IMG/VR virus record: IMGVR_UViG_3300050129_000104
Location: 1-26,864 of that record
Reading direction: 5' to 3' (one strand)
Length of the DNA stretch: 26,864 nt
Origin: a virus
Shown: positions 5,011 to 25,604 of the stretch, piece by piece
How positions within the stretch are numbered: position 1 is the first letter of the stretch
Layout of the letters: every line of letters starts with the position of its first letter
The notes under the pieces: model-generated
Databases searched by the model: none
What the model saw: only the letters and a program-made list of their open reading frames with translations
What the model was told of the DNA's origin: nothing
Made by a program: the position numbers and the translations under genes

Positions 5011-5400
5011 TTACGGCGTGACGCTGAAGTTGACCGGCGGAGGCGGCGTGTTGCTCGGTATGGTCGCCGTGGACGTGACAGGCGTACTGGCCGCAGGATT
5101 GCCGCTCTGGTCCTTGCCGTTGACCACGAGCGAGTAAGTATGCGATCCGGCCGCTCCCGCAGGCGTCTGGGTATAGGTCAACGCCGTGGGCGCAATCGTT
5201 GAGCTGATAACCACCGGCTTGGTGGCGTTCGTGATGTCGCTCAAGGTGAAGCCACTAAGGCAATCGGTGGTCACGGTTGTCGAGCAGGCCGGCCAGGACG
5301 TCGCCCATGCGGAGTTGGCCTGCCAGGTAAACGTAACGCTGTTCGATTGCGCGAGCGCGGGCGAAGCCGCGAGAAGTAGCAGCCAGAGAAGTCGTTTCAA
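5011..5400 (-). CDS. Small secreted protein A, paralogue of the upstream gene
   Basis: 129 residues starting with TTG at 5400, justified by a strong GAGGTGA site 5 bases upstream and by the signal peptide it completes. Residues 1-18 are a classic Sec signal peptide: MKRL, a run of leucines, then SPALA before Gln. The mature part begins with an FTWQANSAW motif, carries two cysteines (WPAC...DC) that could form a disulphide, then an Ig/fibronectin-like beta pattern ending in a Thr/Pro-rich tail. The next gene upstream encodes a protein of the same length and plan (FTWQANPGW, WPPC...MC, SYT/YT then HT-FSLV). They look like a tandem duplication. Function unknown; secreted beta-sandwich proteins of this kind often bind ligands or other proteins. 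Confidence 0.72.
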   Translation of the reverse strand: MKRLLWLLLLAASPALAQSNSVTFTWQANSAWATSWPACSTTVTTDCLSGFTLSDITNATKPVVISSTIAPTALTYTQTPAGAAGSHTYSLVVNGKDQSGNPAASTPVTSTATIPSNTPPPPVNFSVTP

Positions 5401-5412
5401 GAAGTCACCTCG

Positions 5413-5811
5413 TTACGGGGTTTTGATTGCGAAAGCCAGGGGCGCCCCGGGGGCGGCAGCAGCCTTTATGGTGGTCGTTAGGGTTACCGGCGTTGATGCC
5501 GTCGCGGCTCCCGCCTGGTTCTTGGCGTTCGCGACCAAGCTGAAGGTGTGGACTCCGACCGTCGGCATCTTCCACATGGTGTAGGACAAGGCGGTCGCCG
5601 AGATGGTGTTCGAGACATTGAAGGGCGCCGATGGCTTGGTGACGTCCGAGATTGCGAAGCCGGTTCGGCACATGGTGGTAACCTTCGTTGTGCACGGGGG
5701 CCACGCGGACCATCCGGGGTTCGCTTGCCAGGTGAAGGCGGGGAATTGAGCCGGGGCGGTTGCGGTCGTAGCGACGGCCAGCGCGAGCACGAAGATATAG
5801 AGTGGTTTCAT
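5413..5811 (-). CDS. Small secreted protein B, paralogue of secreted protein A
   Basis: 132 residues from ATG 5811 with AAAGG 8-9 bases upstream. Signal peptide in residues 1-22 (hydrophobic VLALAVATTATAPA before Gln). The mature part repeats the plan of the downstream gene: FTWQANPGW, a Cys pair (WPPC...MC), IS-DV/DI-T, an aromatic YTM/YTQ, a V-HTFSLVANAKNQAG strand matching S-HTYSLVVNGKDQSG, and a STPVT-TTI/TATI stretch. The gap to the downstream gene is only 12 bases. The DNA shows fewer matches than the proteins, so the duplication is not recent. Role unknown; export into the envelope or medium is the only firm prediction. Confidence 0.75.
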   Translation of the reverse strand: MKPLYIFVLALAVATTATAPAQFPAFTWQANPGWSAWPPCTTKVTTMCRTGFAISDVTKPSAPFNVSNTISATALSYTMWKMPTVGVHTFSLVANAKNQAGAATASTPVTLTTTIKAAAAPGAPLAFAIKTP

Positions 5812-5845
5812 TGCGGGACCTTTCGCTGTAGAAAAAGGAGAGAAA

Positions 5846-6256
5846 ATGTGTCTACCGGTTACGCCATACAGGGTTGAGCGGGAATGGAAGCATGCGGGAT
5901 TATCCTGCGCCGTGGTCCAACAGCAAGAGGGCGGCCACCGTTGCGGCTACGTTCGGGTGCCTCCGGGCCATGCGCTACATGGCGGGGGCTACGATGACGT
6001 GGATGTTGACGTCCACGGCGGTCTCACCTTCGCCGAGATCGAGCCCTGCGACGAACACGAAGACGGCTGTGGGTACTGGTTCGGCTTCGACTGCGCGCAT
6101 TCGGGTGATTCTTCATACGACCCAAGCACGGATGCACCCGAGGCTGTGCGGCTGCGAGCACTATGCCCGAGTCTTGTCCGCGGGCATTACTGGACGCAGG
6201 CCGAGGTCGAGCGGGAAGCCGAGGCGCTAGCGGAACAGTTGGCGGCTGCCGCTTAG
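5846..6256 (+). CDS. Accessory phage protein with HGGLTFAE...GFDCAHSGD motif
   Basis: 136 residues from ATG 5846 with a near-perfect AAGGAG 5 bases upstream. The central part has the recognisable motif VHGGLTFAE, then GYWFGFDCAHSGD and, after a variable loop, Y-W-x-x-x-V-x-x-E followed by a helix LAEQLA. This combination is widespread in small proteins of phages of actinobacteria and other bacteria; no biochemical function is known to me. Conserved Asp, Cys, His and Trp in one block could mean a metal or ligand site. It is a lone plus-strand gene inside a minus-strand block, and its last 4 bases overlap the convergent endolysin gene, so it is probably an independently expressed insertion. Confidence 0.8.
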   Translation: MCLPVTPYRVEREWKHAGLSCAVVQQQEGGHRCGYVRVPPGHALHGGGYDDVDVDVHGGLTFAEIEPCDEHEDGCGYWFGFDCAHSGDSSYDPSTDAPEAVRLRALCPSLVRGHYWTQAEVEREAEALAEQLAAAA

Positions 6257-6777
6257 GCGGCCACCCGATTAAGCCACCCCTTTAGCTCCCCTGCCTGGGC
6301 CGGATTTGCCTCTGCAATCGCCCGGTAGTGCGCGGTGAGGGTATCGCGCCACTGAACCATCAGCGCCGCTTGCTGGGCCGCACAGGCGCTGTTTATGGCG
6401 GCAACGGTTTCAGGACCCGGTTCTCCATCGACCGCCAAACGGGCACCGAGCGCGTTCAGGCTTTTTTGGAGCAACAGAACGGTGGTCTCCGTGCCCTCGT
6501 TGACGCAGAACGAGAGCAGGCGATTCGCGAAATACTGGGAGACGATCGCGCCGCCGTCCATGTGGTCCCAGTAAGCCAATTCCATCGTTTCCTCGGCGAT
6601 CGCTTGCGCTTGCGGATTCGGCATCGCTCCATAGAAACCCGTCGCGGTCAGCTCTGGATGATACTTCTCCGCAATCCCGAACCGCGTTCGACCGCCCCTG
6701 TCCACCGTTAGCTTCCCCGAGAGGGTCGAGTCTTCCTGCAGCATGACGAAATCCACGGCCGTCTTTGCGTCTGCCAT
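6253..6777 (-). CDS. GH108 peptidoglycan hydrolase (endolysin)
   Basis: 174 residues from ATG 6777; a longer form from TTG 6792 is possible but would begin in the terminator. The N-terminal domain has the GH108 layout: catalytic glutamate E15 in LQED, then D26-RGG-x-T-RFGI (26-35) and Y69-W70-D71. Residues 100-130 (LLLQKSLNALG...VDGEPGPET) match the peptidoglycan-binding domain 3 that follows GH108 in many phage lysozymes. It should cut the glycan strands of peptidoglycan at the end of infection. No signal peptide is visible, so release through a holin is expected; candidates are the small membrane proteins at 4650-4958 and 6843-7406. The ribosome site is weak (GGTG). Confidence 0.88.
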   Translation of the reverse strand: MADAKTAVDFVMLQEDSTLSGKLTVDRGGRTRFGIAEKYHPELTATGFYGAMPNPQAQAIAEETMELAYWDHMDGGAIVSQYFANRLLSFCVNEGTETTVLLLQKSLNALGARLAVDGEPGPETVAAINSACAAQQAALMVQWRDTLTAHYRAIAEANPAQAGELKGWLNRVAA

Positions 6778-6790
6778 TCCGTTTTTCACC

Positions 6791-6819
6791 AATAGAAAAG
6801 CCCTCCCCGGGGGAGGGCT
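6791..6819 (-). terminator. Rho-independent terminator after the coiled-coil/TM gene
   Basis: In the minus direction the 10-base arms 6799-6808 and 6810-6819 (AGCCCTCCCC/GGGGAGGGCT) form a very GC-rich hairpin followed by TTTCTATT. It lies between the coiled-coil gene and the endolysin, so endolysin transcription either reads through or starts anew. Confidence 0.75.
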
Positions 6820-6842
6820 GTGCCTTCGCGGTCTAGCCGCTT

Positions 6843-7567: not shown

Positions 7568-7915
7568 ATGCTAATCAAGATCATGCTTTTGATGCTCGCC
7601 TTGGGTGGAGTAGCGTCAGCCGGCGAGGGCGCTTATCCTACCCAATACGTTGTCGTTACTACCAGCAATGTGGGCAGTTTCATGATTGGCAACTTTTGCA
7701 CCATGAGCCTGCGCGACCAAGCTGCGGCCTCCGTCGCTCTCATCGTGCAGAGGCGCGGCCATAGCGCATGCCACACCTGGGATAGCGGCACCATCTTCCA
7801 CGGGCGTCGCGAAAAGAACTCGATCAAGTTGCTCACGACGGACGACAAAGGGAATCCCAAGGTGGAGGACTGGCCGATCACCGGCACCGTGGCGCTCGGC
7901 ATTCCGGCCAAATGA
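7568..7915 (+). CDS. Small secreted protein, isolated accessory gene
   Basis: 115 residues from ATG 7568 with GGAG 6-7 bases upstream. Residues 1-18 form a Sec signal peptide (MLIKIMLLMLALGGVASA). The mature protein has Cys residues in NFCTMS and SACHTW that could pair, and a beta-rich pattern. No family recognised. It is the only plus-strand gene in its surroundings, stands 161 bases from the divergent coiled-coil gene and converges with the fibre gene (4-base gap). A possible promoter lies upstream (TTGGCT near 7504, then a GATAGA-like -10 near 7530). The isolated position, own promoter and signal peptide fit a moron or lysogenic-conversion gene changing the host envelope. Confidence 0.7.
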   Translation: MLIKIMLLMLALGGVASAGEGAYPTQYVVVTTSNVGSFMIGNFCTMSLRDQAAASVALIVQRRGHSACHTWDSGTIFHGRREKNSIKLLTTDDKGNPKVEDWPITGTVALGIPAK

Positions 7916-7919
7916 ATGT

Positions 7920-9119
7920 TTAGGTCGCCCAACTCATGAGCGTGTTACCAACCGGTCCTCCGTCCGGCAGAATTGCATAACCCAAATAGTTGAAACCACC
8001 AGAGCCAAGATAGCTAGAAGATTTAGTAACTGTGTAGACCTGCGTCCAAAGGCTTCCGTCGTAGGAGAAGCGAAAGTAGATGCTGGTTCCATCGTCCTGC
8101 AACTGGAGCCATACGAACGGGCTTTGCTGAAGGATGCCATCCGCGGCCAGTACTAACTGCGTCCCGAGCGTGGTCGGGTTGGTGAGTTCGACAACGTAGA
8201 TGTTCCATGGCGGCCCACCGTAATCGAGCAAACCCAGATAGAGCGCCTCCCCGGTTGTCGTATTGGCGATAACGATGGCGAATCCCGTGGTCGAAACCGG
8301 CTGCGTGGTCCCATTGATGATTCCGGCCGGCATCGAGAACAGCGCGTTAAGGGTAAAGGCCGACCCCGGATACGTTCCCAGGATGCCCTCTACATGAACG
8401 CCGAGGGTTCCTGTGTCGACGAGCGTGATGCCGGTTGGATTGTTCGTTGCGGTGAAGGTACCCGATTGATTGTAGGCGGTTGTGAGCGAGATGCCGGCCT
8501 GCGTCGGTACCGCGCTCATGATGGCACTGAATAGGCCGCCTCCGCCTCCGCCGCTGGGCGTCACCCATGTGGGCGCCGAGCTGGAGCCATTCGTCTGGAG
8601 AACGTCGCCGCTGGTTCCAGCAGCCAACCGGGTGGGCACACCCGACGCGCCGCCGTAGATGATGTCCCCTTCGGTCGTCATCGGATTGGCGAGCGCAGTC
8701 GAACTGATGACACCGGCAGAAATGGTGATGGTAGAGCCGTCGGGCTTGACCGCTCCGAATGCGCCGGTGGTTGCCAAGGGCAAATCGGCCGCCGCCAATG
8801 CGCGGAAGGTTGGATCTGCTGCGGATCCTGACGCCGGGCCGGCAAAGACTTCGTTCGCCGTCTCCGTGGCAAGGGTTACCGCGAGCGTGCCTGAACCGGT
8901 GATCGGCGAGCCGCTCACAGACAGAATCGCCGGCACGGTGAGCGCAACGCTGGTTACCGTTCCGGTGCCGGTGCCGCCGGACAACACTTCGACCCAGGCC
9001 GAACCCGAGTCGCGATAAGTGATGTTCGTGTCCGTGGCGAAGTAGAGGCGCCCGGGGATGCCATAGGCGGGGATGTCGGCGTAGATGCCTTCAAGGATTA
9101 CTTGAGCAATGGTCGTCAA
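7920..9119 (-). CDS. Tail fibre-like protein with C-terminal jelly-roll-type domain
   Basis: 399 residues starting with TTG at 9119, which overlaps the TGA of the preceding gene (TTGA) and has GGGAG 6 bases upstream; no ATG is available near the start. Residues 1-45 contain an A-YGIPGRLYFATDTN-T-YRD-G motif common at the N-terminus of phage fibre proteins. Residues 50-120 are Gly/Thr/Val beta repeats (VTSVALT...GSGTLAV), followed by a GDIIYGGASG...LAAGTSGDVLQTNG-SAPTW motif typical of phage side-fibre stalks. After a Gly-rich linker (about 190-196) the last 200 residues look like a concanavalin-type beta-sandwich (FVWLQLQDDGTSIYFRFSYDG), similar to DUF1349 or laminin-G-like carbohydrate-binding domains. 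It should extend from the tail tip and contact the cell surface. No signal peptide, unlike the fibre-like genes further upstream. Confidence 0.8.
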   Translation of the reverse strand: MTTIAQVILEGIYADIPAYGIPGRLYFATDTNITYRDSGSAWVEVLSGGTGTGTVTSVALTVPAILSVSGSPITGSGTLAVTLATETANEVFAGPASGSAADPTFRALAAADLPLATTGAFGAVKPDGSTITISAGVISSTALANPMTTEGDIIYGGASGVPTRLAAGTSGDVLQTNGSSSAPTWVTPSGGGGGGLFSAIMSAVPTQAGISLTTAYNQSGTFTATNNPTGITLVDTGTLGVHVEGILGTYPGSAFTLNALFSMPAGIINGTTQPVSTTGFAIVIANTTTGEALYLGLLDYGGPPWNIYVVELTNPTTLGTQLVLAADGILQQSPFVWLQLQDDGTSIYFRFSYDGSLWTQVYTVTKSSSYLGSGGFNYLGYAILPDGGPVGNTLMSWAT

Positions 9120-9388
9120 TTTGGCACTCCCAGAACCACGATTACGTCGCCTCCGAGCGTGAGCGTCGCAGCGAAGATTATGTTTCCATTGCCATCGGTC
9201 AGCGGCTCGTCATGCGTGCCGCCGGGGCCCGGGCCGAGAACGACCGGCACGTAGGCCGAGACGTCGTAAATCGGCAGGCCCGCCGCGTTTACACCGGTAG
9301 GGCTTAGGCCCTTTTGCCAATAGACACTCGGGTAATCCGCTGGCGCGGCCGGGGTTACGTTGGAAAAATTTGCCTGGAATGCGCCCAT
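9116..9388 (-). CDS. Small tail-tip protein, 90 residues
   Basis: ATG at 9388 follows immediately after the stop of the large tail-tip gene (no gap), and the end overlaps the next gene by 4 bases, so translation is coupled on both sides. Gly/Pro/Val-rich, beta-type composition with a GNIIFAATLTLGGDVIVVLG end. No family recognised. Position between hub protein and fibre suggests a connector or chaperone for the fibre; this is inference from context. Confidence 0.7.
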   Translation of the reverse strand: MGAFQANFSNVTPAAPADYPSVYWQKGLSPTGVNAAGLPIYDVSAYVPVVLGPGPGGTHDEPLTDGNGNIIFAATLTLGGDVIVVLGVPN

Positions 9389-12300
9389 CTAAGAACCATT
9401 AACCGAGATAGTTTGGGCACCCGTCCCGCTCGTGCCGAGGACCGTGTATGGGTATGCGGTTGCGTCGGCGAGCGTTCCCGTCACGACGCCGAAGGAATTG
9501 AAGGGGAGCATCTTGAAATGCACCGTTTCGCCGACCCAGGCCGGCAGCAACGGTACTTTGCAAATGCCCTGTCCGCTCGGCGGCAGAAGGGCGAATGCAG
9601 AGCCGTTTGGATGGTCGACGCCGACGCCCGTAGCCGGCGCCCCGAGAACTGCACGGTCCAGATGGTTTCCGACCCCGGTGGCCATAAGGGTGTAGTTGTA
9701 AACCGCAGTCAGCGTCGCCGCGCCGTAGGTCATCAACTCATACGGCACTTCTGGCGTTGCGGCGCTCTCGACAATCACTTGGACCGCAAAGCCTCCGTTG
9801 CCGGCCGCGACAAAGTTATTTTCGACCGTGACCGCGCCACCCGGCATAACCTGATCTGCGAGTAGGGCATAGATATTCGTCGTTCCGGAACCGCCAAGGG
9901 TATTAGCTGTGCCGGTCGATGGTGTAATGACGGGCGCATCGATGGGGCCGCCATCTTGGCGAAGAGAGGCCCAGTAAACAGCCACGTCAGTATCGAGAAC
10001 CGCCCCGGAAGTCGTGTTGGTCAGGGTTATGTTGCCGCCATCTCCTCCGATGCCCTCGGTTTCGCGTATGCCGCCAGTAGGCCCAACGAATACGACGAGC
10101 CCGCCAGCCATATCGAAGGCTCCTGCGGGGCACTGGACCTCCACATATCCGAGTGTGATATCGAAGCTAATCAGCAGCTTATATACGGAGATTTGTGACC
10201 AGGGGCCGCCGCCGCCCCCGCTGTATGCGTTCGCCCATCCGGTTTCTGGGACCGGGGCTATGTTGTCGCCGGCAGAAGCGAAAAGGATTGCAAGGTCCCC
10301 CACCTCTGAGCCGGCCGGGAGAGGGATGAGGATCGTGTTGCTAATTGGGCCCTGAGTTAGAAACGAAGAGCCACGCAGGACTGGCGTCGGAGGCCCGTTT
10401 TCTACATAGCAGGGATAAACGAACCCATCCTCGGTTGCGACCGGGTAGCTCTGAAGTGTCTCCGCGCTCTCGGTAAGGTTGACGCTGAGGTTATTCGTCG
10501 TATCAGGGCTCGATGCACCCGGCCAATCGTCCACGGTGACGCCCTGAACTCCGTTTCCTATGGTGGGCGAACCTGCGGAAATATAGCTCGCTCCGCCATC
10601 GGTTGAGATGTAGACCTGCGCGCCGGCGAAGTTCGGGTCCGGGTCCGAGATGACAAGCCACACCTGGCCCTGATTTGCCGAGCCGATCAGCCCCGGAACC
10701 GGCTCGAAGATGATGGGCGGATTTATCGGCTGAGTGACGGTTGCACCCGTGCTTGGCGAACTGCCCCCGGACTGGCTCGCTGAAAACGGCGTGGGCGCGT
10801 ACATGCCGTAAACGAAGGGCTCGGCCTGGCACTGGATCGAGCCGTCGGTCTGCTCGGCCATCGAGGTGATGCGCACGGGTAACTGATTGACGCCCATGAG
10901 CGGGTCCGTCACCGTAATCAAATCCATCGGCGAGAGCAGGCACCATTTGGCCGGGACCGTAAAGCTGGCAACGTCTCCCCCGTATTGGAGCTTGCGCACC
11001 ATGATGCCGAGAATCTGGCGCGCGATTGACACATCCTGGATGGCGTAATTCTGCACCGGGTCGGCCTTGCGTATGCCGAAGAGCGAGATCCCCACCGCGT
11101 CCGGTTGCTCGACCACGCTCGGGTTGTAGTTCGAGCTCCGGTTGATGCACTGCATCTGCAGCACGTTTGGCTGGTCAACGCGTGCGGCCGTCTTGATGGT
11201 CAGCGGTGGGGTATTTCCCGATGCGACGAAGTCCCCGTTCTCCGTGCTCAGATTTGCGATCGGCCCGCACGCCGTGTAGGCGTTGAAGATGGCGCCGTTC
11301 CCAATCTTCGAGACTTCCGAGTAGGGGATGCTGTAAAGCTTGAACCCCATGAACAGCGGCGCCGCGTCGGCCGCCTGGTAGAGCGTAGTCAGCCAATCGC
11401 TCGCCGCCTGCTGGGAATCCATCGTGAGCGAGCCCCAGAGGCCATTGGCGCGGCATTGCAGGCGTACCGTGTCGAGCGAGTAATTGTCGACGTAGTCGCC
11501 GACCGGCGCCGGATAGCTTGGCGGCGCGATGGCGCACTTGAACGCCAGCGAGCAAACGTAGCTGGGATTCGAGCTGGGTTGCGGCATCGTGAACTTGTAT
11601 GTCCCCGGCGTTTCCACGGTGCGCGAAAAGATTAACTCATAGGGAGCGTTCAGGTCGTAAACGTTGCTCGGCGCGTTGAGTGGCGTCCAGAGCGGTATAT
11701 TCGGCGTCGTGCTAAAGCCGGGCGAGCCGGGCGTCCACAGCGAGAAGGTAAGAATGTAGGCCGGGAAGCCCTGCTGATTGGTTGTTACCTGGGAAACGCT
11801 CGGGCTCGTTCCGATGGTCGAACTGTCAAAGGTGTCGACGCCTCCAATCTCGAGCAATTGCGTGCCGCTGTCGTTTCCCTGCGGCCCGCTGATTGCGACG
11901 GTGTTTGGGCCTGACGCTTTTGCTTGTGCCCACCAGACCTGCATATACAGGCCCGAGGCGAGCAGCGGTGTCCATGTGTTCCCTGCCGTGTCCGATATGC
12001 CCAGCGTGGCCGTCGCCCCGGAAGTGGCGATGACGACCAGGAAATTCCCCTTCGTATTCGGCTGGTTGTACGGGATGGGATTTGAAGGAAAATCCGCGCC
12101 GCCCGCAAATTGATTCTGCACGCAGCCGGGAAAGTCGTAGCCCGAAAGCCCGTGCTCAACCTGGGTAAACCCCGGCATGGTTCCGGTGGTGTCGCCGATT
12201 GCTGCCTGGGCAACGCCTGAGCGGAAGACGTCCTCGATCATGTCGGCGAAGTCGGCATCGCCGGTTGGATAGAGGCCCCACTTGCCCTGGACCTCGACCT

Positions 12301-13096: not shown

Positions 13097-13126
13097 TCAG
13101 GGCCCGCTCCAAGTAAGATTGCGCTC

Positions 13127-13354
13127 ATGGAAAAGTGGCTCGTCTTTACGTACATTCGCGGTGACCTGTTTAAAGTCTCGGTGTGCAGAACAAAGCGAAT
13201 GGCTACCCGCCTGGATAACCAAAACAAGAAGCCTTTGATGGCCGCCTATGGATGGAGTTCTAAGGTGTTGCCGCTGTCATTCATCAATGCGTACCTAACA
13301 GGTGTGGACCCAAACAGGCTGAGCCACCGGAAGGCGCTAGCGATTGTTCAGTAG
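13127..13354 (+). CDS. Small plus-strand hypothetical protein between tail genes
   Basis: 75 residues from an ATG at 13127, in the 187-base gap that the tail operon leaves between the NlpC/P60 and hub genes. Its last 71 bases lie antisense to the end of the NlpC/P60 gene. The product is basic with a mixed hydrophobic/charged pattern (WLVFTYIRGDLFKVSV, KKPLMAAYGWSSKVLPLSF) that looks more protein-like than the GC-rich shadows nearby. The ribosome site is weak. No family recognised. It could be a small accessory gene, or the gap could simply be the leader of the hub gene. Confidence 0.42.
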   Translation: MEKWLVFTYIRGDLFKVSVCRTKRMATRLDNQNKKPLMAAYGWSSKVLPLSFINAYLTGVDPNRLSHRKALAIVQ

Positions 13355-16900: not shown

Positions 16901-19900
16901 TGTTGCTCTGCACGAATCCCGAAGCCGTGGCAATCGCCTTGAGCGTGGTGGTAGCCGTCAGCGTCAACGGGCTCGAATAGACGGTCGATCCCGTCGTAGG
17001 CGTACTGCCATCGTTGGTGTAGTAGATGGTCGAGCTGGGAGTCGTATCCGAGATGGTGACGGAGAGGCTTCCGCTAAACGTGGCTGAGGTCGGTGAGAAG
17101 CTGGGCGTGGCCGCGAGAACCGATGGGCTCACCGTCAAGGTGACGGGCGAACTGGTGACCGCGCCGACATTGGCAGTGACGTTCGTCGTGCCGGCCGCTA
17201 CCGCGGTGAAGAGACCGCCGGGCGAGGTCACTGTTCCGGTTGCCGGCGTCCCGCTGGTGAAGGACGCGCGGTTGCCCTGCGAATCGGTCGTGGTGCAATT
17301 GGTCGGCGAGGGCGCACCGCTTCCGGTGTACGTGCAGGTCGCGGTGAGCTGATTCGTTACGCCGATTCCGAAGGTAGTTATTCCACCGGTCGTGGTCACG
17401 GCGATCGAACTGAGGGTGGGACCTGCCGCGCATCCCCTGGTGACCAAGCCCGATAGCTGGGTCACATTGCATAGCCACGCCGGAAAGTACGGGTCGGATA
17501 CGACGCTGCCTGAGACCGGCTGGTAGCCCCATGAGGCGTTGCCGTTTGTCGGCGTGAGGTCCGTGATGAGCGCCGCCATGCAAGCGGGCACGGTCGCGTA
17601 GGAGCTGCAGCTCGGGGCGCTGGGGACGCTTCCCGGGGCGCTGGTAAATGACGGGTTCGTGGTCGTGTTCCCGGGTCCGAAGGTGAATCCGGTGCAGGTT
17701 CCCTGGCAATTCGTGTCGTTCCCGAACGAACTGTAGCCCTGGTTATTCGATACCGTGTTTGTGCCCGGTGACCCGGCGCTGTAGAAGCTGAGGCCATAGG
17801 TGTAAACCGGGTAGCCGCCAACCGTGTTGACCGTCGGCTGCACTATGTTCTTGGAAGCGGTTGCGTTATTGTCCTCCTGGAGAAAGATCTCGCCGAACTC
17901 CGAGGAGACCATTGCGGAATCCTGCGCGTTCGCATAGGCCGTGTTGTTCAGAATGAAGGTGTGGGCCAGGGTGGTCGAGTCAACGCGAAGTCCCGTATTG
18001 CCGTTGTAGAGCGAGATGTTGTTTTCCATCACGCCTTGCTGGGCGTACGAATTAGCATCCCAAGTATCGAAGATTATCCCTTCCCCGTCGGTGGGCGGCG
18101 TGCCCGCGCAGGGGTTCGGGTTCACGTTATGCCAGTCGAACGTCTGCGAAATGTAAATATGGGTGCCAGCCAAGGTATCGCTTTGCACCGGTTCCCAGAT
18201 GGAGATGCCGCTCCCGCACTCGGACGATTCCTGCGATCCGTTGTATGAGATCGATCCGACGACGTTGAAATAATCGACGCCGGCAGATCCGTTTGGAGGA
18301 GACGAGAAGCCGGCACTGTTGCAGCCGTTGGCGATATCGTTCCCGAAAACGATGTGGTGGATGGTCGAGCCGCCCAGCGGGTAGGCCTCGAAGCACGATG
18401 CCGTGCCGCCGGTCGCCGTGGCGACGAAACCAAAGACGCCCCAGTTGGAAGCCGTTATCCCGACGCCCGGCGAGCCGCTGGTGAGGCTCACCGTGCAGGC
18501 GAATGGAGTCGCGCAAACCACAGCCGCGATGTTTTCCGATGAACCCGAGCCGCAGCCCGTTACCGTGCCCCAATTGCCGAAGCCAAGGGCTGTCCCGTAA
18601 GCGCCCGCCGCCGCTGAAATCGTGGTGCCGCAAGCTATGGAGTGGTTAGGGGTAGCCCAGGGCGAACCCGAACTTGTGCCGGAATTCGAATCGCTTCCCG
18701 AGGGCGACATGTAATACGTGGTGGTCGACGAAACGGTGACAGTAAAGCCCGGGCTATTGACACCGGCCGCAGTGGCCGTGATGTTGGACGTGCCGGCGGC
18801 CACGCCCGTGACTATGCCTGTCGTCGACCCCACCGTGGCATGTAAGGTTGTGCCGCTTGTCCACGTTGCTGCGTTTCCCTGAGAATCGGTACTCGGTCCG
18901 GTGCAATTGGTCGGGGACGGCGCCCCGGAACCCGTATAGGTGCAGGTTGCCGTCAAATCGACCGTTCCTCCTACGGCCGTCGTGTTCGCTCCTGTTACCG
19001 CTATCGAGGCGAGCGTGATACTGCCCCCGCCAGTGTCGAGCGGATGCGGATAAACGTAAGGGGTGTAATAACTTGCCCAGCTGTTCGTCCCCACGCACTT
19101 GTAGAGCGTGCTTTGGTCGGTCGCCCAGTAGGCCACGCCGGTCGTGCAGCTTGCGGGGCGCGAAGCGAGCAATCCGCTGCCCGTTCCGCTGCTGCCGGTA
19201 AAACTCCCGGTGTACGCATAATAATCAGTGTTCGCAGCCAGGCCGGGAGCGTACCCGGTGTAATAGGTCGAGCTGGGAAAGCCAGATGAGGGGGTATAGC
19301 TGTTCAGCCATTCATAGAGTGGTTCGAGCGCCTGATTTGGCCAGGTTAACGTACCTGTCGCAGTATCGACTTTGCTTGGCGCCGTTCCATTCAACAGATC
19401 AGACTGCCCGGTTCCCGGTTCATCCAGGCACTTGTAGCCATAGGTTGAAGTGGGTGTTTGATCCCACGCGGATTCATCCCCCGAGAGCCCCGACGTGCTT
19501 CCGCAATATCCCCACCCTCCAGGGGTAGGAGACTGGGCATAGGTGGTATCGGTACTGCGCGTGGTGTGTAGATCTAGAAAGTGCTCGTAGCCGGATGCGG
19601 TATTGTTCCAGACCAGGGCCGTCGCCGACTGCATGTAAAAGAAGTCATACGTCTCGGTCGTCGGCGAAATAGCACCGTTGAACTGGTTTCCGTAAACCTC
19701 CATGCTCCGGCAGCCGCGGATGTCGGCTCCGGCACCCCCCGTGGGGTGCTCGTCCATGCCCACGTTGTTCATGGTGTTATAGCGGATGACGAGTCGGCCG
19801 CCGGAATAGCAGTCATTCATGTAAGAGGCCGATTGCCCGGGAATCGAACCGCTGTTGAAGACGTTGTTCTCAAAGAAGAAGGCGTTTCCGCTACCGAAGT

Positions 19901-20549
19901 TCGTCGCCGTGGCAAAGGAATCATCGCCGAAATAATTGGTATTCGTCGTACCCCCGGGATTGCCCCAGTTGTCATCCCAGACGTCGACTGCTCCACTGTC
20001 TTCAATGATGCTGTGGTCCATGACCCCATACATCCAACCGCCGGAGCCAATTCTCATCGGGGTATTCGGACCGGCATTCAGGTGAAGATGATCAAGACGA
20101 GTACTTTGCGAATATCCGCTTACGGCGACCATGCCGTTGTATTTCACATGGCCTGACCCAATGTTTACCGTCAACCCAGAAAGCCTGAAAAAGGATGATG
20201 CTACGCCCGGACCAAGACAGATCAGGCAATTCTGGTCTGCTCCATCGTTGTCGGTAATCGTTGTGCTGTCCGTTGCCGTGCAGGTTCCCCCGGGAGCGCA
20301 GGACCCGCTTATCGTGGTGGCCCCAATGATGGAGAGGTTGGTATTTCCTGAAGGCACATTGAGTGTGACCTGAGTGGTCCAGTTGCAGCTCCCCGCCGGG
20401 ATATTTACCTGCGTCGTCGAGGTGACAACTGAGTTAAAGGCTGTCTGCACGTCGGCAGCCGAGCAGCTCGCCGCATTAATGGTTTGAGCGCGTACCATCG
20501 GCGCGCAGAGGGCCAGCAGCGCACCCAGGAGCAGTGTGAGTCTTTTCAT
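13992..20549 (-). CDS. Giant secreted multidomain beta-helix protein (tailspike/adhesin-like)
   Basis: 2185 residues from ATG 20549, chosen over a longer in-frame start at 20699 because AAGGAC stands 6 bases upstream and the protein then opens with a clean signal peptide (MKRLTLLLGALLAL...VRA before Gln). Domains by rough residue position: right-handed beta-helix (25-480); BIG2-like Ig (509-606); second beta-helix with a YYMSPSGSDSNSG start like DUF1565 (610-1040); second BIG2-like Ig (1045-1143); one CHB_HEX_C-type repeat (1144-1227); GH28-like beta-helix (1229-1701) with NTDGID near 1486; Ig-like repeat (1743-1846); four CHB_HEX_C-type repeats (1852-2175); a short CFGCWWK end. This mix is typical of Acidobacteriota secreted proteins and suggests polysaccharide binding or cleavage. 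It sits between the DUF2163 and NlpC/P60 tail genes. Confidence 0.87.
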   Translation of the reverse strand: MKRLTLLLGALLALCAPMVRAQTINAASCSAADVQTAFNSVVTSTTQVNIPAGSCNWTTQVTLNVPSGNTNLSIIGATTISGSCAPGGTCTATDSTTITDNDGADQNCLICLGPGVASSFFRLSGLTVNIGSGHVKYNGMVAVSGYSQSTRLDHLHLNAGPNTPMRIGSGGWMYGVMDHSIIEDSGAVDVWDDNWGNPGGTTNTNYFGDDSFATATNFGSGNAFFFENNVFNSGSIPGQSASYMNDCYSGGRLVIRYNTMNNVGMDEHPTGGAGADIRGCRSMEVYGNQFNGAISPTTETYDFFYMQSATALVWNNTASGYEHFLDLHTTRSTDTTYAQSPTPGGWGYCGSTSGLSGDESAWDQTPTSTYGYKCLDEPGTGQSDLLNGTAPSKVDTATGTLTWPNQALEPLYEWLNSYTPSSGFPSSTYYTGYAPGLAANTDYYAYTGSFTGSSGTGSGLLASRPASCTTGVAYWATDQSTLYKCVGTNSWASYYTPYVYPHPLDTGGGSITLASIAVTGANTTAVGGTVDLTATCTYTGSGAPSPTNCTGPSTDSQGNAATWTSGTTLHATVGSTTGIVTGVAAGTSNITATAAGVNSPGFTVTVSSTTTYYMSPSGSDSNSGTSSGSPWATPNHSIACGTTISAAAGAYGTALGFGNWGTVTGCGSGSSENIAAVVCATPFACTVSLTSGSPGVGITASNWGVFGFVATATGGTASCFEAYPLGGSTIHHIVFGNDIANGCNSAGFSSPPNGSAGVDYFNVVGSISYNGSQESSECGSGISIWEPVQSDTLAGTHIYISQTFDWHNVNPNPCAGTPPTDGEGIIFDTWDANSYAQQGVMENNISLYNGNTGLRVDSTTLAHTFILNNTAYANAQDSAMVSSEFGEIFLQEDNNATASKNIVQPTVNTVGGYPVYTYGLSFYSAGSPGTNTVSNNQGYSSFGNDTNCQGTCTGFTFGPGNTTTNPSFTSAPGSVPSAPSCSSYATVPACMAALITDLTPTNGNASWGYQPVSGSVVSDPYFPAWLCNVTQLSGLVTRGCAAGPTLSSIAVTTTGGITTFGIGVTNQLTATCTYTGSGAPSPTNCTTTDSQGNRASFTSGTPATGTVTSPGGLFTAVAAGTTNVTANVGAVTSSPVTLTVSPSVLAATPSFSPTSATFSGSLSVTISDTTPSSTIYYTNDGSTPTTGSTVYSSPLTLTATTTLKAIATASGFVQSNIGTSVYTLSSGGDTRTVTEPVFPPVCQVLNAVLSIGTSTSINNDPYNVTPYLPANNFSYEPSSETAFDTTRVQNALNSCASGQAVELAPSTDGTKYGFLLQRITVPTGVSLTIDPGVGVYASRNPADYGGTNCGVVTSAGGGCNHWITGPNTTGSGIYGYGRLDGRGWDRLLVGGVQQSYSWYSNTIQAYCNKHSGAINGSPPCTPNSQGGNQYGPNILAMVNASSFTLYKTTLHAGPEFQFEWEGTNGGTQANGLTVWGAKIITPFETSNTDGIDPTNNFQNVTVEDSFISNGDNQMAMKSTNGGGAGKNVSILNNHTYAGIEIGIGSDTGGGFSNVVVSGLTQNGNLNNVQSAGIGINSSTSNGGTVSNITFTDICQVNEHDTWRFYTNYGCDTGSQTPLYTGIKLSNITVLPSTAPYTTGNSGYFTFQGLNSSNLMGLSLNNININGTNQGVTQQCSVTKDQYAQIALGPNFVDSSLLSQFAAGTSVNTTGSGSGGTPYNCSYPSSFQPIVGELLMMTPTATNQQCRPNCTFSGSTATYTLQVVIQPATEINSKESYALTSGPITFSDNGTPVGTATIGTYGDNGTLAQLTLTNVAAGTHHYTATYPSDGHYASWTPYTFGSLNVDINGCTPGCTAPPTFSPTTEGFTGTVTVTISDSSPSPTIYYTTDGSVPTTGSSVYSTPLTFSATTTLRAIATSSGLTTSTSSQAVYTLGSNPAATPTFSPNSETFTGSISVVISDSTSSPTVYYTLDGSTPTTASTVYSGPLAISASTTVKAIATASGFTQSAVGTAVYSLSGPTAATPLFTPGSQAFTGTLSVVISDTTPSSTIYYTTNGTTPNTGSTVYSGPISVSANTIINAIAVATGYITSAMGTATYTLSSQTPTIIPGPQKFSTTLTVSIVSPAGGVIHYTVDGSTPTSASPLYAGAFTISASTTVKAITIVSGVTSLPATVIYTQGQCFGCWWK
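14025..14992 (-). repeat. Four tandem CHB_HEX_C-type coding repeats
   Basis: Each unit is about 79-84 codons and runs ATP-FSP...F-G-(L/I)SV-ISD-(T/S)-S-TIYYTTDGS-PTT-STVYSGPL-(I/S)-ASTTVKAIA-A-GF. The YYT-DG anchors fall near 14158, 14394, 14643 and 14893, so spacing is about 236-250 bases. A fifth unit lies apart at 16868-17118. Units differ by many substitutions, so they are old duplications. Confidence 0.8.
16868..17118 (-). repeat. Displaced fifth CHB_HEX_C-type unit between Ig and GH28-like domains
   Basis: Encodes ATPSFSP...TIYYTNDGSTPTTGSTVYSSPL...TTTLKAIATASGF, the same unit as the C-terminal array about 2 kb away. It is placed between the second BIG2-like domain and the GH28-like domain and seems to act as a linker or sugar-binding module. 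Confidence 0.75.
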
Positions 20550-20578
20550 GAAATGTCCTTGGAGATGATTGCAAAGAC

Positions 20579-21511
20579 CTAAACGGCGCTCTGCGGGCTG
20601 GGCACGAACGGAAAGCCGGCGAAGTTCGGCGAGTCGCCCTGATTGATCGGCGCTGCGGTGCTCACATAAAACTGGTCGACACCCGGCGTCGGAGCCCACG
20701 GCATCGACGAATAGATATCGAAGACGCTGTGCGTGTTGCCGTTGCCGTCAACAAACTCGTTGTTGGTCGAGATCGCGCTCCAGAAACCGCCCAGCGTCGA
20801 GCCCGGGTTAGTGCTGACGAAGACCAGGTATCCGGCCACGAACAGGTTGAATGCGTAAATCTTCCCCGGCGTCGGCGAGATGCAGTCCGCAATGATGGCG
20901 TTTGTCGTTGTCCCCACGAATACGTTGAAGATGGGGATTGAAGGGTCGCCCGCAGGAATGGTCGCCGCCGTGTAGCCGGCCAAGGTCGACGTGCTCTCGA
21001 TGACGTTCGCGGGAACCTTCTGCGTCACCACATCCAAGAACGAGTTGATCTGAAATTGAATCTGGTTTCGGCCCAGCGTCGTGTTTGCGATCCGGCCGCC
21101 GAACCATTCGCAGGCGCCGAGCGTGCTCGCATCGCCCGGCGTCGGCATGAAGCATTTCCAGATCCTTACCGGCCAGTTGTCATAGAAGTGCTGGCGGGCA
21201 AGCTGCAGCGGCGTTGCGGTCGCCGCGCTCGAAGTAAAGTCTTGGTTTGAGGGTGACCAGCTTACTGTGGTGTTCTGAACGTCGAGTCCAACCTTGCATG
21301 TGATCGACCCCTTGGAAACCACGGCTGGATAGAACGTTCCCCAGGGCGGATAGATGACCGGTGCCTCGTGGTCGGTCATGAAGATGGACTGCGGGTTATC
21401 CTGGTCGCCGATCAGGTACAGGTGCCGAATGAGAGGGTTGACGGTGCCCGCAAGATACGTGACGACGGATGTGGTTGTGTCAACGCCTGCACCGCTTATG
21501 CACTGTCTCAC
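20579..21511 (-). CDS. DUF2163-like tail assembly protein (GTA gp13-like)
   Basis: 310 residues from GTG 21511, which overlaps the TGA of the 40-residue gene (GTGA). The early part (LIRHLYLIGDQDNPQSIFMTDHEAPVIYPP, given here only as a region near residues 27-56) followed by YPAVVSKGSITCKVGLDVQN and a distinct C-terminal half follows the layout of DUF2163/BR0599 proteins: a T-DH strand, a YxPA strand, then a C-terminal domain with an FVAG-YLVF strand. In GTAs this protein is part of the distal tail hub/baseplate, between the DUF2460 protein and the NlpC/P60 peptidase. Here 5 secreted-type genes separate it from those neighbours. Cys residues are few. Family call is by pattern, not by search. 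Confidence 0.68.
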   Translation of the reverse strand: MRQCISGAGVDTTTSVVTYLAGTVNPLIRHLYLIGDQDNPQSIFMTDHEAPVIYPPWGTFYPAVVSKGSITCKVGLDVQNTTVSWSPSNQDFTSSAATATPLQLARQHFYDNWPVRIWKCFMPTPGDASTLGACEWFGGRIANTTLGRNQIQFQINSFLDVVTQKVPANVIESTSTLAGYTAATIPAGDPSIPIFNVFVGTTTNAIIADCISPTPGKIYAFNLFVAGYLVFVSTNPGSTLGGFWSAISTNNEFVDGNGNTHSVFDIYSSMPWAPTPGVDQFYVSTAAPINQGDSPNFAGFPFVPSPQSAV

Positions 21512-21630: not shown

Positions 21631-21644
21631 TAAGAGAATCACCC

Positions 21645-23231
21645 TTACTTCACGGCCAAGGTGCTACTAAAGCACGCGCCGATGTTTTGACTCTGTGTAT
21701 TTTGGGCCGACCAGGTGAGTGCTGCTGAGCCACTTGCCAGTCTATCGGCCATGATGCCCGCATCTTGCTCCAGACCAGATCCCTGGTAGTTATAGAAAGT
21801 ACCCGTACCAGCAGCTCCACAGCCGGTGTTGGTCCCATTCGGGCATATTTCCTCAGCAGTTAAGAACTGCCCCACGTTGATGCCACTGATCGTATCGAAG
21901 TCCTGGTTAAAGTAACTCAGCACCAGGGCCGGAAATCCGCTGGGAGTGATGTGTGCTCCTGTTGCCGTCGAGCTGGACGCACATGAAGTATTTGTCGCAC
22001 ACGGCGTAGACCCGGAACTGCAAGTGGCCGTAGAGTCATAGCCAGATGCTGCGCCTGCCACGTCGAAGAAAACCCACAAGGGATCTAGATCGGATGGGTT
22101 GGCGCCATAGGTCACGGTCACTTTTTCTGTCCCATTGCAAGTGGCCGGATAGTTGGTGGTGTTGTAATACTGGATTGAGAACCCGTCTCCCGAACTGTCT
22201 ACCCTGGTGAGTCCTGCCCAAGTGTTGCTGTTGTTGTCGGTCACCCCTGTGACTGTTGTTGAATCGATGTTTCCCACCAATAAGATCGGTGCGTTGCCCT
22301 GACATGGGAAGTTGACCGTCTGCGTGGTAGCGGTGGAAGCGGTTGAGTATCCCCAACCATTAGTCGATGGATACCCAGAGTTTTGAACTTCCATCGAGAG
22401 TAAGTAAGGGCCGGAAGGATGCGCTGCACCGGCTGTCACGGCTTTGATTGCCAAACCCGCAATGTTCGCACGGGTCACCGCCGAGGCTGCCGTTATTGCG
22501 CCCGTGACCGCGCCAGCGGTTGCCTGAATCCCAGTCTGCGCTGCTGACCAGCCGAGCCCGTCGTTTGTGGCGAGCGTCCACGTCGGCGTAGTACCGGTTT
22601 GAGCTGTATAACTAGTGAATCCGGTGGGCTTGGTACCGTATGTAACGGCGTTTGCGGCAATTAGCAAAAGGTCACCGTTCACGGTGGGCGTCATCGAGGC
22701 ACAGGCCAGCGACGTGCCGCTTGTTACCGTCGCCGCGCACGCTTTATCAACCGCTCCCAGATTGTCGTACTCCCACATGGTCATCTGATTGTGAGTTGCG
22801 CCTGTAGGCGTGGCGAAGGTCAGACTGACGCAATGCGAAGCATGAGTAACCGGTGCGACGTAAAAGGCTATTGTTTGGCTACCCGCTGTTTCAGAAGCAC
22901 CGGAGGGGAGGGAATAAGTATTAGATGAAGAGCCGTCGTCGGTTAATGAAATGTTACTTGTGGCAGATGCCGTGACCACCATGACAATGATAGTGTTTCC
23001 CGACTGCGTAGCGTATGGGAAACATTTAACCATATAATTGTCGGTAACAGCTCCACCGCCCAGATTGGTGTTTACCTGAACGTCAGTCGCCGTTACGATA
23101 GGTCCCTGCACCACAGCAGGCGTCGGGACTGACGTGGCTCCCACGTTAAATCCGGCCTGAACATATTGCCCCAGTGCGATCGCGGGCAACATGCAGCAAG
23201 CCGCCATGAGCGCCCATAGTAGCTTTTTCAT
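21645..23231 (-). CDS. Secreted two-domain beta-sandwich protein, 528 residues
   Basis: ATG 23231 overlaps the previous stop by one base (TGATG). Residues 1-21 are a Sec signal peptide ending IALG before Gln. Two similar beta-domains follow, about residues 40-265 and 275-525: each has a start such as GNTIIVMVV or APILLVGNI, a TDDGSSNTY/TDNNSNTWAGL strand, an AFYV/IQYY strand, a V-VTF/VTVTY strand, an acidic EYDNLGA/FFDVAGA turn and a final ASGS-ALTWSAQ or DLLLIAANA segment. This fold pattern recurs in the tail-tip protein (residues about 325-480) and in many Acidobacteriota secreted proteins. Several Cys pairs (for example ATCSSGSTPCATN) fit an oxidising environment. Likely a surface or virion-associated binding protein; no enzyme motif seen. 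Confidence 0.78.
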   Translation of the reverse strand: MKKLLWALMAACCMLPAIALGQYVQAGFNVGATSVPTPAVVQGPIVTATDVQVNTNLGGGAVTDNYMVKCFPYATQSGNTIIVMVVTASATSNISLTDDGSSSNTYSLPSGASETAGSQTIAFYVAPVTHASHCVSLTFATPTGATHNQMTMWEYDNLGAVDKACAATVTSGTSLACASMTPTVNGDLLLIAANAVTYGTKPTGFTSYTAQTGTTPTWTLATNDGLGWSAAQTGIQATAGAVTGAITAASAVTRANIAGLAIKAVTAGAAHPSGPYLLSMEVQNSGYPSTNGWGYSTASTATTQTVNFPCQGNAPILLVGNIDSTTVTGVTDNNSNTWAGLTRVDSSGDGFSIQYYNTTNYPATCNGTEKVTVTYGANPSDLDPLWVFFDVAGAASGYDSTATCSSGSTPCATNTSCASSSTATGAHITPSGFPALVLSYFNQDFDTISGINVGQFLTAEEICPNGTNTGCGAAGTGTFYNYQGSGLEQDAGIMADRLASGSAALTWSAQNTQSQNIGACFSSTLAVK

Positions 23232-23932
23232 CAGTTAGCCTGCACTGTGATCAATCTTGGGAAGGTGACGGTGGCCCCGTAGAAGTTTACGGCCGAAGTT
23301 GCTGTGTCAGTTGCTCGTCCCACTTGAATAATCATTAAGCTGCCGGCGACGCATCCGGTCACGTCGGTCGAGTTCATTTGCACGTTTGAAGAGACGAAGA
23401 ACTCATTCGCGGTCGCCGACGAAAGCGTGATCGTACTCGATGAATGGGCGGCATTAAATGACACATCGTCCGTCGTACTGCCATCGCCTTTCGCGCAGGA
23501 AACCTTGATTTGGGGAATGATCGTGTGCGAAGAGGAGCCGTCCGTCCCCGGATAGGCGAGCTGGAAGCGAATGTAGGGGTCGGTTCCGGTATCCCAATCC
23601 TCGGGGATCGTGACTGCAAACTGGGCGAAGGTCGTCGATGTGTCGGTGATTGCGATATAGCCGCCGAGGTTGTTTGTGCCCGCCCGGCATGTGACCGTTC
23701 CCCCGGAAGGAATGGACCAGCCGGCGCCCGCGGTCGTGTTATTGCAGTTCGCCGCAGGGACGAAGAGGCGCTCGGGGAAATCAACGAACGTCTCCGGCGA
23801 AACGGCGCCCTGGCTGACGCCTATCTGCTTCGTCGTCCCAACCGGCAGCGCGCTAAGTCCGGCCGTCTGCGCGAGCGCCTGCATGGCTACCGCCAGCGCC
23901 AGCAGAGTTAGCGCGTTGCGGATCCTACTCAT
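23231..23932 (-). CDS. Secreted beta-rich protein, 233 residues
   Basis: ATG 23932 overlaps the stop of the previous gene by 8 bases. Residues 1-21 form a Sec signal peptide (NALTLLALAVAMQALA before Gln). The mature protein has an FVDFPERLFVPAANCNN start, a YIAITDTSTTFAQFAVTIPEDWD-TGTDPYIRF region and VSFNAAHSSSTITL, a pattern of a jelly-roll or tail-stalk domain such as those in phage and Acidobacteriota particle-bound proteins. Cysteines at four or more positions (CNN, TVTC, VSC, TGC) could pair. No known enzyme motif. It sits in the exported-protein series between DUF2460 and DUF2163, with coupled translation on both sides. Confidence 0.75.
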   Translation of the reverse strand: MSRIRNALTLLALAVAMQALAQTAGLSALPVGTTKQIGVSQGAVSPETFVDFPERLFVPAANCNNTTAGAGWSIPSGGTVTCRAGTNNLGGYIAITDTSTTFAQFAVTIPEDWDTGTDPYIRFQLAYPGTDGSSSHTIIPQIKVSCAKGDGSTTDDVSFNAAHSSSTITLSSATANEFFVSSNVQMNSTDVTGCVAGSLMIIQVGRATDTATSAVNFYGATVTFPRLITVQAN

Positions 23933-24716
23933 TGATTACCCCGGGGCCATCAGAGAGCCACGCGGTTTGAGATTCATCGTAATTGAAATGCTGAGAACTG
24001 CATTTGGAGAGTGTGGTGCCGACCGTCATGAATCCGTGGACATTTGACGGCGGAGTTACAGTGTATCCGCCGGTTGCGTTCTGGCAAAAGGTAAGGACTT
24101 TATCCTGGCCGTAGTAGTTAGCCGAAGGTGCGGCAAGCGTAAAGCTAGTTACACTTGCAGTCAGAATATTCGTACTGTATCTAACCGTGTTTGAAAAAGT
24201 TGGGGTAGTCGAAGAAGCCACAGATTCATAACTGGCCACGATGCCGATGGGGGTTGTCAAGCCACTCAATTGCGTAATCGAGCTATTGTTTCCCGTGGCC
24301 GCCTTACCGTTCAACTGAGTCTGGATTGAACTGGTCGGGTCCACGTACCCCATCGTGGTTGGGGTAACTCCGTCCAGAGTCTTGTTGGTCAGGGTTTGTG
24401 TATCGGTGGTGCCTACGATCGTGCCGGAAGGAGCAGTTAAGCTTGTGCCAAAGGCCGATCCAGTGCTGACCATGATGCCGCTGGCAGGAAAGGTCTGACC
24501 AGAGGGGGCAACGCAGTCGCCGCTTGCCGGGACGAGCACGTAGGTCGCAGTTGCGCAGCCGGTCAGGTTTGCAAACAGCGCTTCCGTCGCTGATAGCGTT
24601 AGGGGCGGGCTTATGCCGGGGGCGGGCAGCCCGGAGGTCTGGGCCATGCTCAAATCTAGGTTGTCCCACACGATGAACAGTAGTAGATATGCCGTAATCT
24701 TCCGGAGCAGTTTCAT
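23925..24716 (-). CDS. Secreted fibre-like protein with phage stalk motifs
   Basis: 263 residues from ATG 24716, AAAGGG about 10 bases upstream. Signal peptide with a long hydrophobic run (residues 8-17) ending SMA before Gln; an Asp-Asn stretch before the cleavage site makes it a less ideal one. The middle contains TIVGTTDTQTLTNKTLDG and DPTSSIQTQLNGKA, motifs found in stalks of phage side-tail fibres. The last 70 residues (FTLAAP...YTVTPPSNVHGFM...SQTAWLSDGPGVINE) are nearly the same as the end of the neighbouring secreted protein at 24735-25604 (FTLAAG...YTVTPPSNVLGFM...DSAWIAQTPGVINQ). So a phage-type fibre has an added signal peptide and a shared end module. Confidence 0.8.
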   Translation of the reverse strand: MKLLRKITAYLLLFIVWDNLDLSMAQTSGLPAPGISPPLTLSATEALFANLTGCATATYVLVPASGDCVAPSGQTFPASGIMVSTGSAFGTSLTAPSGTIVGTTDTQTLTNKTLDGVTPTTMGYVDPTSSIQTQLNGKAATGNNSSITQLSGLTTPIGIVASYESVASSTTPTFSNTVRYSTNILTASVTSFTLAAPSANYYGQDKVLTFCQNATGGYTVTPPSNVHGFMTVGTTLSKCSSQHFNYDESQTAWLSDGPGVINE

Positions 24717-24734
24717 GTGGTGCCGCCCTTTCGT

Positions 24735-25604
24735 TTACTGGTTGATGACGCCTGGCGTTTGCGCAATCCAGGCTGAGTCCGACGTGTAATACGTAAAGCA
24801 CTGCTGATTGCGAAGGGACGCCGTTGTGCCGATGGGATTCATGAAGCCGAGAACATTGCTCGGAGGCGTGACGGTGTAGGCCGTGTTGGTCGCGTCGTGC
24901 GTAAACTCCAGGCACTTGGGCTGGCCGTCGGTACCGGCCGCCAGCGTGAATGTTGTGATGTTCCCCGAAAGCGGGATCCTGCTCGATGTCGTGGACAGAG
25001 AGAACGTCGGCGTCGCGGAGAACGAGAGATTTTCGTTAGTGAAGGTCCCGCCGCTCGGCGAGATTGCTACCGGCGTGCAGCCCGTCGTCAGTCCCTTCGC
25101 GTTAAGCGTGACCTGGGAGACGTGGGTTGCGTCGCCGCACGAGCCTATGTTGCTGTTGACCGTCGCGAGGGTTGCCGGCTGCGAACCCGTCCCTGGCCCC
25201 GCCATCACATCGCCGGTTAGCTCGTTGATGCCGCCGGGCCCACTTCCTCCGCCCGGCGTGGGCGCACCATTGAATGCCGAGGTGATATCAACGTTTCCCG
25301 TGATGGTGACGGGCGCGGTGTAGCAGGTACTGGCGTTCGGGGAGGCTGCGCAGATTTGAAACTTGGTGATCGACGGCGCATAGGAAAAGAACGTGTTGTT
25401 CCATACCAGCAGCGAAAAGGCCCCGTTTAGATTGATTGCTCCGTTCACCACCGTGACCGTCGGCCCCCCGGTTCCTTGGGGGATGAAGGTGGCCGTGACG
25501 GCGCCCCCGGCGTAACTGCTGATCGTGGCCGTGACTATGGCCTGCTGGGCAAGCGCGAGCGGCGCCGGCAGTAGCAGGAACAACAGTGCGGCCAGCTTTC
25601 GCAT
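24735..25604 (-). CDS. Secreted fibre-like protein combining two modules
   Basis: 289 residues from ATG 25604, 13 bases after the preceding stop; GGGGG lies 8 bases upstream. Earlier in-frame ATGs would overlap the previous gene and spoil the signal peptide. Residues 1-21 are a typical Sec signal peptide (LAALLFLLLPAPLALA before Gln). The first mature 110 residues (ATISSYAGGAVTATFIPQG, FSLLVWNNT, APSITKFQICAASPN-ST) match the signal-less protein at 25618-26007. A fibre stalk follows (ELTGDVMAGPGTGSQPATLATVNSNIGSCGDATHVSQVTLNAKGL, region about 150-200), and the last 70 residues match the end of the next gene. It is therefore a hybrid of the two neighbours. Confidence 0.82.
   Translation of the reverse strand: MRKLAALLFLLLPAPLALAQQAIVTATISSYAGGAVTATFIPQGTGGPTVTVVNGAINLNGAFSLLVWNNTFFSYAPSITKFQICAASPNASTCYTAPVTITGNVDITSAFNGAPTPGGGSGPGGINELTGDVMAGPGTGSQPATLATVNSNIGSCGDATHVSQVTLNAKGLTTGCTPVAISPSGGTFTNENLSFSATPTFSLSTTSSRIPLSGNITTFTLAAGTDGQPKCLEFTHDATNTAYTVTPPSNVLGFMNPIGTTASLRNQQCFTYYTSDSAWIAQTPGVINQ

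Follow-up and report, generated by a model that had tools for sequence, protein, structure and literature searches.

Putative Sec-exported, fibre-like proteins encoded within the tail and lysis region of an Acidobacteriota-type phage

Why would genes woven into the tail region of a phage encode signal peptides? The prevailing view is that tailed phages build their virions wholly in the cytoplasm. A sequence-only reading of a 26,864-base virus record (the window, meaning this whole stretch) had singled out eight signal-peptide genes, five of them inside the tail-tip operon (DUF2460-DUF2163-NlpC/P60-J), and had proposed that they encode an exported set of surface adhesins or fibre decoys, with receptor masking, polysaccharide handling and late docking on lysis-released virions among the suggested uses. 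Our ORF check of the window confirmed all eight as real open reading frames (Table 1; genes are named by their first coordinate). Start sites were picked by script, and in 13992-20549 and 24735-25604 the ATG is internal to a longer ORF. Five signal genes are indeed located in the operon. On the minus strand, which carries every signal gene except 7568-7915, DUF2460 is followed by the signal-less 25618, four exported genes ('exported' denotes predicted export throughout), DUF2163/Gp84_N and an exported giant, and then by NlpC/P60, J, an adaptor, a signal-less fibre and lysis genes with small exported proteins. As had been claimed, most neighbouring genes overlap or are 13-30 nt apart; the longer gaps measure 133 nt ahead of the DUF2163 gene, which has relatives at 50-56% in loci L005-L014, and about 150 nt past the giant. 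A scan for sigma-70-type sites revealed no excess of promoters or terminators over chance, and the base composition of the signal genes is mostly that of their neighbours, with lower GC3 in 21645 and 23925. With such junctions, no promoter or terminator excess and a neighbour-like composition, co-expression of the set and the tail tip is the simplest reading.

Table 1. Features of the window discussed in the text, in minus-strand order
Position	Strand	Feature	Predicted signal	After the cut	Cys	Evidence
26004..26864	-	DUF2460 tail-tip gene, truncated by contig end	none			Pfam DUF2460 1.7e-12
25618..26007	-	paralogue of 24735 N-terminal half	none		0	54% identity over 79 aa
24735..25604	-	exported fibre-like protein	MRKLAALLFLLLPAPLALA	QQ	6	score 12.0
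23925..24716	-	exported fibre-like protein	MKLLRKITAYLLLFIVWDNLDLSMA	QT	4	score 8.1
23231..23932	-	exported knob protein, jelly-roll domain	MSRIRNALTLLALAVAMQALA	QT	4	score 11.4
21645..23231	-	exported beta-rich protein	MKKLLWALMAACCMLPAIALG	Q (cut inferred)	12	score 10.8
20579..21511	-	DUF2163 / Gp84_N baseplate-hub type gene	none			Pfam 5.9e-6
13992..20549	-	exported 2185-aa giant	MKRLTLLLGALLALCAPMVRA	QT	46	signal score, domain matches
13284..13841	-	NlpC/P60 tail peptidase				Pfam 7.7e-4; PHROG minor tail protein
9389..13096	-	J-like tail-tip protein (Phage-tail_3)				Pfam 5.9e-16
9116..9388	-	fibre adaptor	none		0	55% to fused fibre L023 N-terminus
7920..9119	-	tail fibre	none		0	PHROG 19068 and 9625
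7568..7915	+	small exported protein	present		2	score 10.8
6253..6792	-	endolysin (GH108 + PG_binding_3)				Pfam
5413..5811	-	small exported protein	present		2	score 11.2
5011..5400	-	small exported Ig-like protein, TTG start	present		2	score 11.5; weak Big_1 match 0.0035

Each of the eight N-termini has the n-, h- and c-regions of a Sec/signal peptidase I substrate: K/R occurs in the n-region, the hydrophobic core is free of charges and a small-x-small site follows. Our home-made, rule-based predictor, which considers n-region charge, core hydropathy and the -3/-1 residues, scored them at 8.1-12.0, close to the 8.3-12.0 of a dozen known signal peptides from E. coli. Five of six cytoplasmic or membrane controls scored below 4, the membrane protein LacY reached 7.3, and the remaining window genes tested all stayed below 8. 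The same cut was passed by 47 of 2000 shuffles that kept the composition of the eight proteins (2.4%), 24 of 2600 shuffles of non-signal genes (0.9%) and 5 of 756 internal pseudo-N-termini (0.7%), so that fewer than one of the approximately 21 genes considered would pass by chance. The weakest signal, that of 23925-24716 (8.1), has D/N within its c-region. Residue Q is found at +1 of the predicted cut in six of the eight, and two residues beyond it in 21645 (MLPAIALGQ); close to the cut, [AGST]Q is also seen in 21 of the 33 long signal proteins from phages. A host-type rule of Q at +1 was weakly supported and was rejected, two Acidobacteriota genomes giving 14% and 29% on the basis of 35 and 17 signal peptides with imprecise predictor cut sites. 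None of the eight has a lipobox Cys at +1, and the mature parts contain an even number of cysteines in every case (2, 2, 2, 46, 12, 4, 4 and 6 in gene order from 5011 to 24735). Judging by sequence, Sec export of the eight proteins appears well supported.

In the structural regions of control phages (lambda, crAss001, B124-14, and Acinetobacter and Brevundimonas phages), signals are almost absent. The tail-tip architecture is the same in the Acinetobacter and Brevundimonas phages, which have one in 53; B124-14 has one in 25 (a membrane-type protein), crAss001 has one membrane lysis protein that passes and signal-less tailspikes, and lambda has Lom, a true signal, plus one borderline false positive. 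Mx8, also run as a control, has three signal-bearing proteins. In the Myxococcus phages Mx8 (p64) and Mx9 (p14), annotated 'putative tail fiber', a Sec signal stands exactly ahead of a common fibre N-terminal domain. Across 79 viral loci with this type of domain, 77 have it starting within the first residues and are signal-less; the other two are Mx8 and L166, the latter with a different signal. The premise that virion tail proteins normally lack a Sec signal thus holds for the control phages other than Mx8 and for this ordinary fibre family. The graft in Mx8, Mx9 and L166 gives the clearest indication that a normal tail-binding start may be retained in exported fibres.

The window contains an internal control of the same kind. 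The start of the signal-less 25618 aligns with the mature start of exported 24735, and in a hairpin-like stretch the A and T of 25618 (IAAPSPNGSTTY) stand opposite C and C in 24735 (ICAASPNASTCY). The pair shows what looks like the graft of a signal together with two added cysteines. The linker of 24735 is 70% identical to Tunturi_4 gp113 and also matches the exported fibre of L055. Its C-terminal domain is shared with 23925 (41% over 140 aa), and we found no homologues of this domain beyond near-identical contigs. The knob of 23231, whose predicted structure (pLDDT 68.5) resembles both CBM-like and tail-fibre/tailspike folds, recurs in 13 other viral loci, always on a carrier protein with a Sec signal (13/13), and had no match in the phage collection. 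It is present in only one of 396 Acidobacteriota genomes, there inside a myovirus-type provirus with five signal genes in a row ahead of the lysis genes. The fibre homology of 24735 and 23231 runs through exported fibres only. The giant combines beta-helix-like stretches, a degenerate GH28 region (1.9e-36 to 1bhe) and Big and CHB_HEX_C/Fn3_assoc repeats, and matches an exported protein of the provirus in L071 at 45% over 623 aa. Compared with the catalytic motifs of 1bhe, it retains NTD, has DN for DD and is missing GHG and RIK; it does not qualify as a GH28 polygalacturonase by these four motifs, and its GH28 unit may serve in binding instead of cutting. The small proteins 5413-5811 and 5011-5400 are paralogues (51% over 77 aa).

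Similar genes are found in the Tunturi phages, cultured phages of Acidobacteriota (PMC11924767). Tunturi 1 has signals on gp12, gp13, gp14 ('tail spike'), gp16 and gp17 ('virion structural'), with 1-32 Cys; in Tunturi 1 (gp12-14, gp17) and Tunturi 2, nearly all large proteins of the fibre/spike block are signal-bearing. Tunturi 4 has signals on gp113 and gp114, Tunturi 3 has none, and Tunturi 5 has none within the fibre region read. Tunturi 4 gp114 and Tunturi 1 gp17 share a module (49% identical over 650 aa), and the two phages are unrelated according to their authors; the main text of that paper mentions neither mass spectrometry nor signal peptides (PMC11924767).

The sequence-only reading had suggested looking for the same exported series in related phages and proviruses, and it does recur there. 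Using the J-like protein as query, we identified relatives in 55 viral loci, many of them fragmentary and some related and hence not independent, and in one Acidobacteriota MAG. A phylum-wide search yielded one more clear provirus (G395) besides weaker matches; two relatives are thus proviruses within Acidobacteriota genomes, and the exported form is present in one of them. Signal-bearing genes make up 47 of 152 genes (31%) within 6 kb after J versus 12 of 313 (4%) before it, and in L035, L060 and L068 an exported gene sits exactly between DUF2460 and DUF2163, like in the window. From these loci, signal-bearing tail-region genes recur beyond one contig, and fibre-body or fibre N-terminal-domain homology is detectable in the relatives. 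The first gene past J usually encodes the fibre adaptor. In 12 phages adaptor and signal-less body make up a single protein, and in 19 the adaptor is separate. A Sec-signal gene comes next in 10 of the 19 with a separate adaptor versus none of the 12 with a fused one (p = 0.004, with hand-coded states and kinship ignored), and a quick J tree forces at least six state changes (gains or losses). The J proteins of L030 (fused, signal-less) and of L042, where the adaptor comes with an exported body, are 66% identical, and the two phages share a terminal domain (44% over 205 aa); a body segment is likewise homologous across the two forms in L048 and L018 (58% over 99 aa), and the signal-less fibre of the window has segments in common with fused fibres. 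A programmed frameshift joining adaptor and body, which overlap in L048 for example, was rejected, since a complete signal peptide would then be purposeless. Among proteins encoded near J, related loci not being independent, an even Cys number is found in 38 of 46 exported versus 28 of 66 signal-less proteins (p = 3e-5), with Cys contents of 1.9% and 0.9%, respectively. Several exported fibres after J or the adaptor have the motif xNPxQIxW right behind the signal, followed by differing bodies; it might be an attachment-type module.

The sequence-only interpretation is therefore partly supported, namely in silico for an exported, fibre-like set woven into an Acidobacteriota-type phage tail and lysis region; of the uses it had listed, late docking is the one favoured. 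We consider export of fibre-class proteins very probable. The eight window proteins would be Sec-exported and disulfide-stabilised, the larger ones belonging to the fibre, knob or spike class, and their likeliest fate would be docking on virions at lysis, a combined reading to which we give about an even chance. They would be late products of the operon that encodes the tail tip, leave via the host Sec pathway, be cut by signal peptidase I and fold outside the cytoplasm with disulfide bonds formed by host disulfide enzymes. At least those encoded next to the tail tip would then wait in the periplasm and join tails once lysis mixes the compartments. The virion would thereby gain oxidised, disulfide-locked fibres beyond reach of the reducing cytoplasm. 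Docking as such, to which we assign slightly less than an even chance, is favoured by signals grafted exactly ahead of fibre N-terminal domains, by the alternation of exported with cytoplasmic fibre bodies and by the fibre block of Tunturi 1, where no large spike is signal-less. We are aware of no tailed phage that takes up its fibres from the periplasm. In vitro, fibres of T4 and tailspikes of P22 attach to finished particles, so that late docking is chemically feasible. Two points count against docking: the signal-less fibre 7920-9119 may make the exported proteins of the window supernumerary, and a recognisable tail-attachment domain is missing from most exported proteins, among them the giant.

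Alternatively, the exported proteins could stay off the virion as secreted or surface-bound polysaccharide binders and lyases, involved in receptor masking, superinfection block, keeping progeny off debris or loosening the soil matrix; fibre modules would be reused because the same glycans are bound. This is a substantial possibility even though we hold it to be clearly below an even chance, and the giant is the foremost candidate for such a non-virion role in receptor masking or in the handling of polysaccharides. It agrees with the CBM-like match of the predicted knob fold, with the GH28-like, beta-helix, Ig and CHB_HEX_C domains, with runs of several exported genes that precede the lysis genes in loci of siphovirus, podovirus and myovirus type and with a signal-less fibre still being present in the window. 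Superinfection exclusion is the role of T5 Llp and Cor, exported proteins whose genes lie next to or not far from those for receptor binding (PMC9586334). The observations that favour docking argue against an off-virion role, as does the partial loss of the GH28 catalytic motifs. That the genes are host-derived lysogenic-conversion cargo (morons), inserted into the tail operon like lambda Lom, seems improbable: the signal-bearing Lom directly behind J and the proviruses among the relatives are in line with it, but the window genes overlap or nearly touch tail genes, show neither the sigma-70-type promoter or terminator excess nor, for the most part, a composition of their own, and the knob is confined to one provirus in the 396 Acidobacteriota genomes. 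Still less probably, the hydrophobic N-termini are no export signals but stay on virion proteins, as uncleaved anchors or as membrane-active tips. In favour of this, the support for cleavage is at the level of sequence prediction; against it, the small-x-small sites, the frequent Q at +1, the even Cys numbers and the coincidence of mature starts with the starts of signal-less homologues all point to removal of the hydrophobic segment.

The sequence-only reading knew of no described system of this form. Taken as a claim that nothing related exists, this was too strong given the partial precedents of lambda Lom and T5 Llp and Cor, none of which, however, are fibres. Lom resembles the window genes as a Sec-signal protein at the tail-tip/fibre junction, but is a single outer-membrane protein with a predicted Cys-free mature part. 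Llp and Cor are likewise exported phage proteins, namely superinfection-exclusion lipoproteins which bind the receptor from the periplasm, and Llp adjoins the receptor-binding gene and contains a disulfide (PMC9586334); they are small, whereas the window's eight lack a lipobox, are mostly large and fibre-like and partly occur in runs. Ordinary siphophage and podophage fibres and tailspikes (PHROG 19068/9625; the crAss001 gp22 polygalacturonase/tailspike) share domains and gene position with the exported proteins but have no signal peptides. Carbohydrate-active AMGs of soil viruses, as far as the part of the literature consulted goes (e.g. PMC6172770), likewise bring glycoside-hydrolase-type domains into soil phages, but here such domains sit in tail operons, joined to fibre-like modules, and the GH28 catalytic motifs are partly lost. 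Full-text searches of open-access papers found no description of Sec-exported tail fibres, and export signals on fibre-type genes of soil phages have apparently gone unnoticed so far.

It is tempting to suggest, tentatively and at rather below an even chance, that some soil tailed phages use split-compartment assembly, with receptor-binding fibres or spikes matured in the periplasm and added to cytoplasm-built virions no earlier than lysis. Maturation of fibres outside the cytoplasm would amount to a new route of assembly and could explain why fibres are robust and rich in disulfides. Should the proteins never join the virion, they would form an unrecognised, recurrent phage secretome at the surface of abundant soil bacteria. 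The question is open to testing in cultured phages and, either way, the annotated spike and fibre genes of Tunturi 1, Tunturi 4, Mx8 and Mx9 need re-reading.

A predicted exported module is common to gp114 of Tunturi 4 and gp17 of Tunturi 1 (49% identity), cultured Acidobacteriota phages that show no relationship apart from it. In the Myxococcus phages Mx8 and Mx9, another Cys-rich signal-peptide protein is encoded after the predicted exported fibre, immediately in Mx9 (p15) and one gene farther along in Mx8 (p66). A myovirus-type provirus in an Acidobacteriota genome carries five signal-peptide genes in a row, flanked by collagen-like fibre genes and lysis genes. In the locus L026, a gene whose 895-aa product resembles a glycosyltransferase at its beginning has a fused fibre on one side and small predicted exported genes on the other.

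In the window, exonuclease and RecT-like recombination genes lie near the lysis genes. The GH28 unit of the giant predicted exported protein has degenerate catalytic motifs, and its role is probably binding only.

Coordinates of the features discussed
Feature	Location
Tunturi 4 gp114	L138:35018-37324
Tunturi 1 gp17	L139:19474-23028
Mx8 p66, Cys-rich, signal peptide	L151:38169-38822
Mx9 p15, Cys-rich, signal peptide	L154:6085-6810
Run of five signal-peptide genes	L148/L149 (G340:C46), ~14782-22516 of joined stretch
Gene for protein with glycosyltransferase-like beginning	L026:16367-19054
Exonuclease and RecT-like recombination genes	window 783-1460 and 1619-2779
Giant protein with GH28 unit	window 13992-20549
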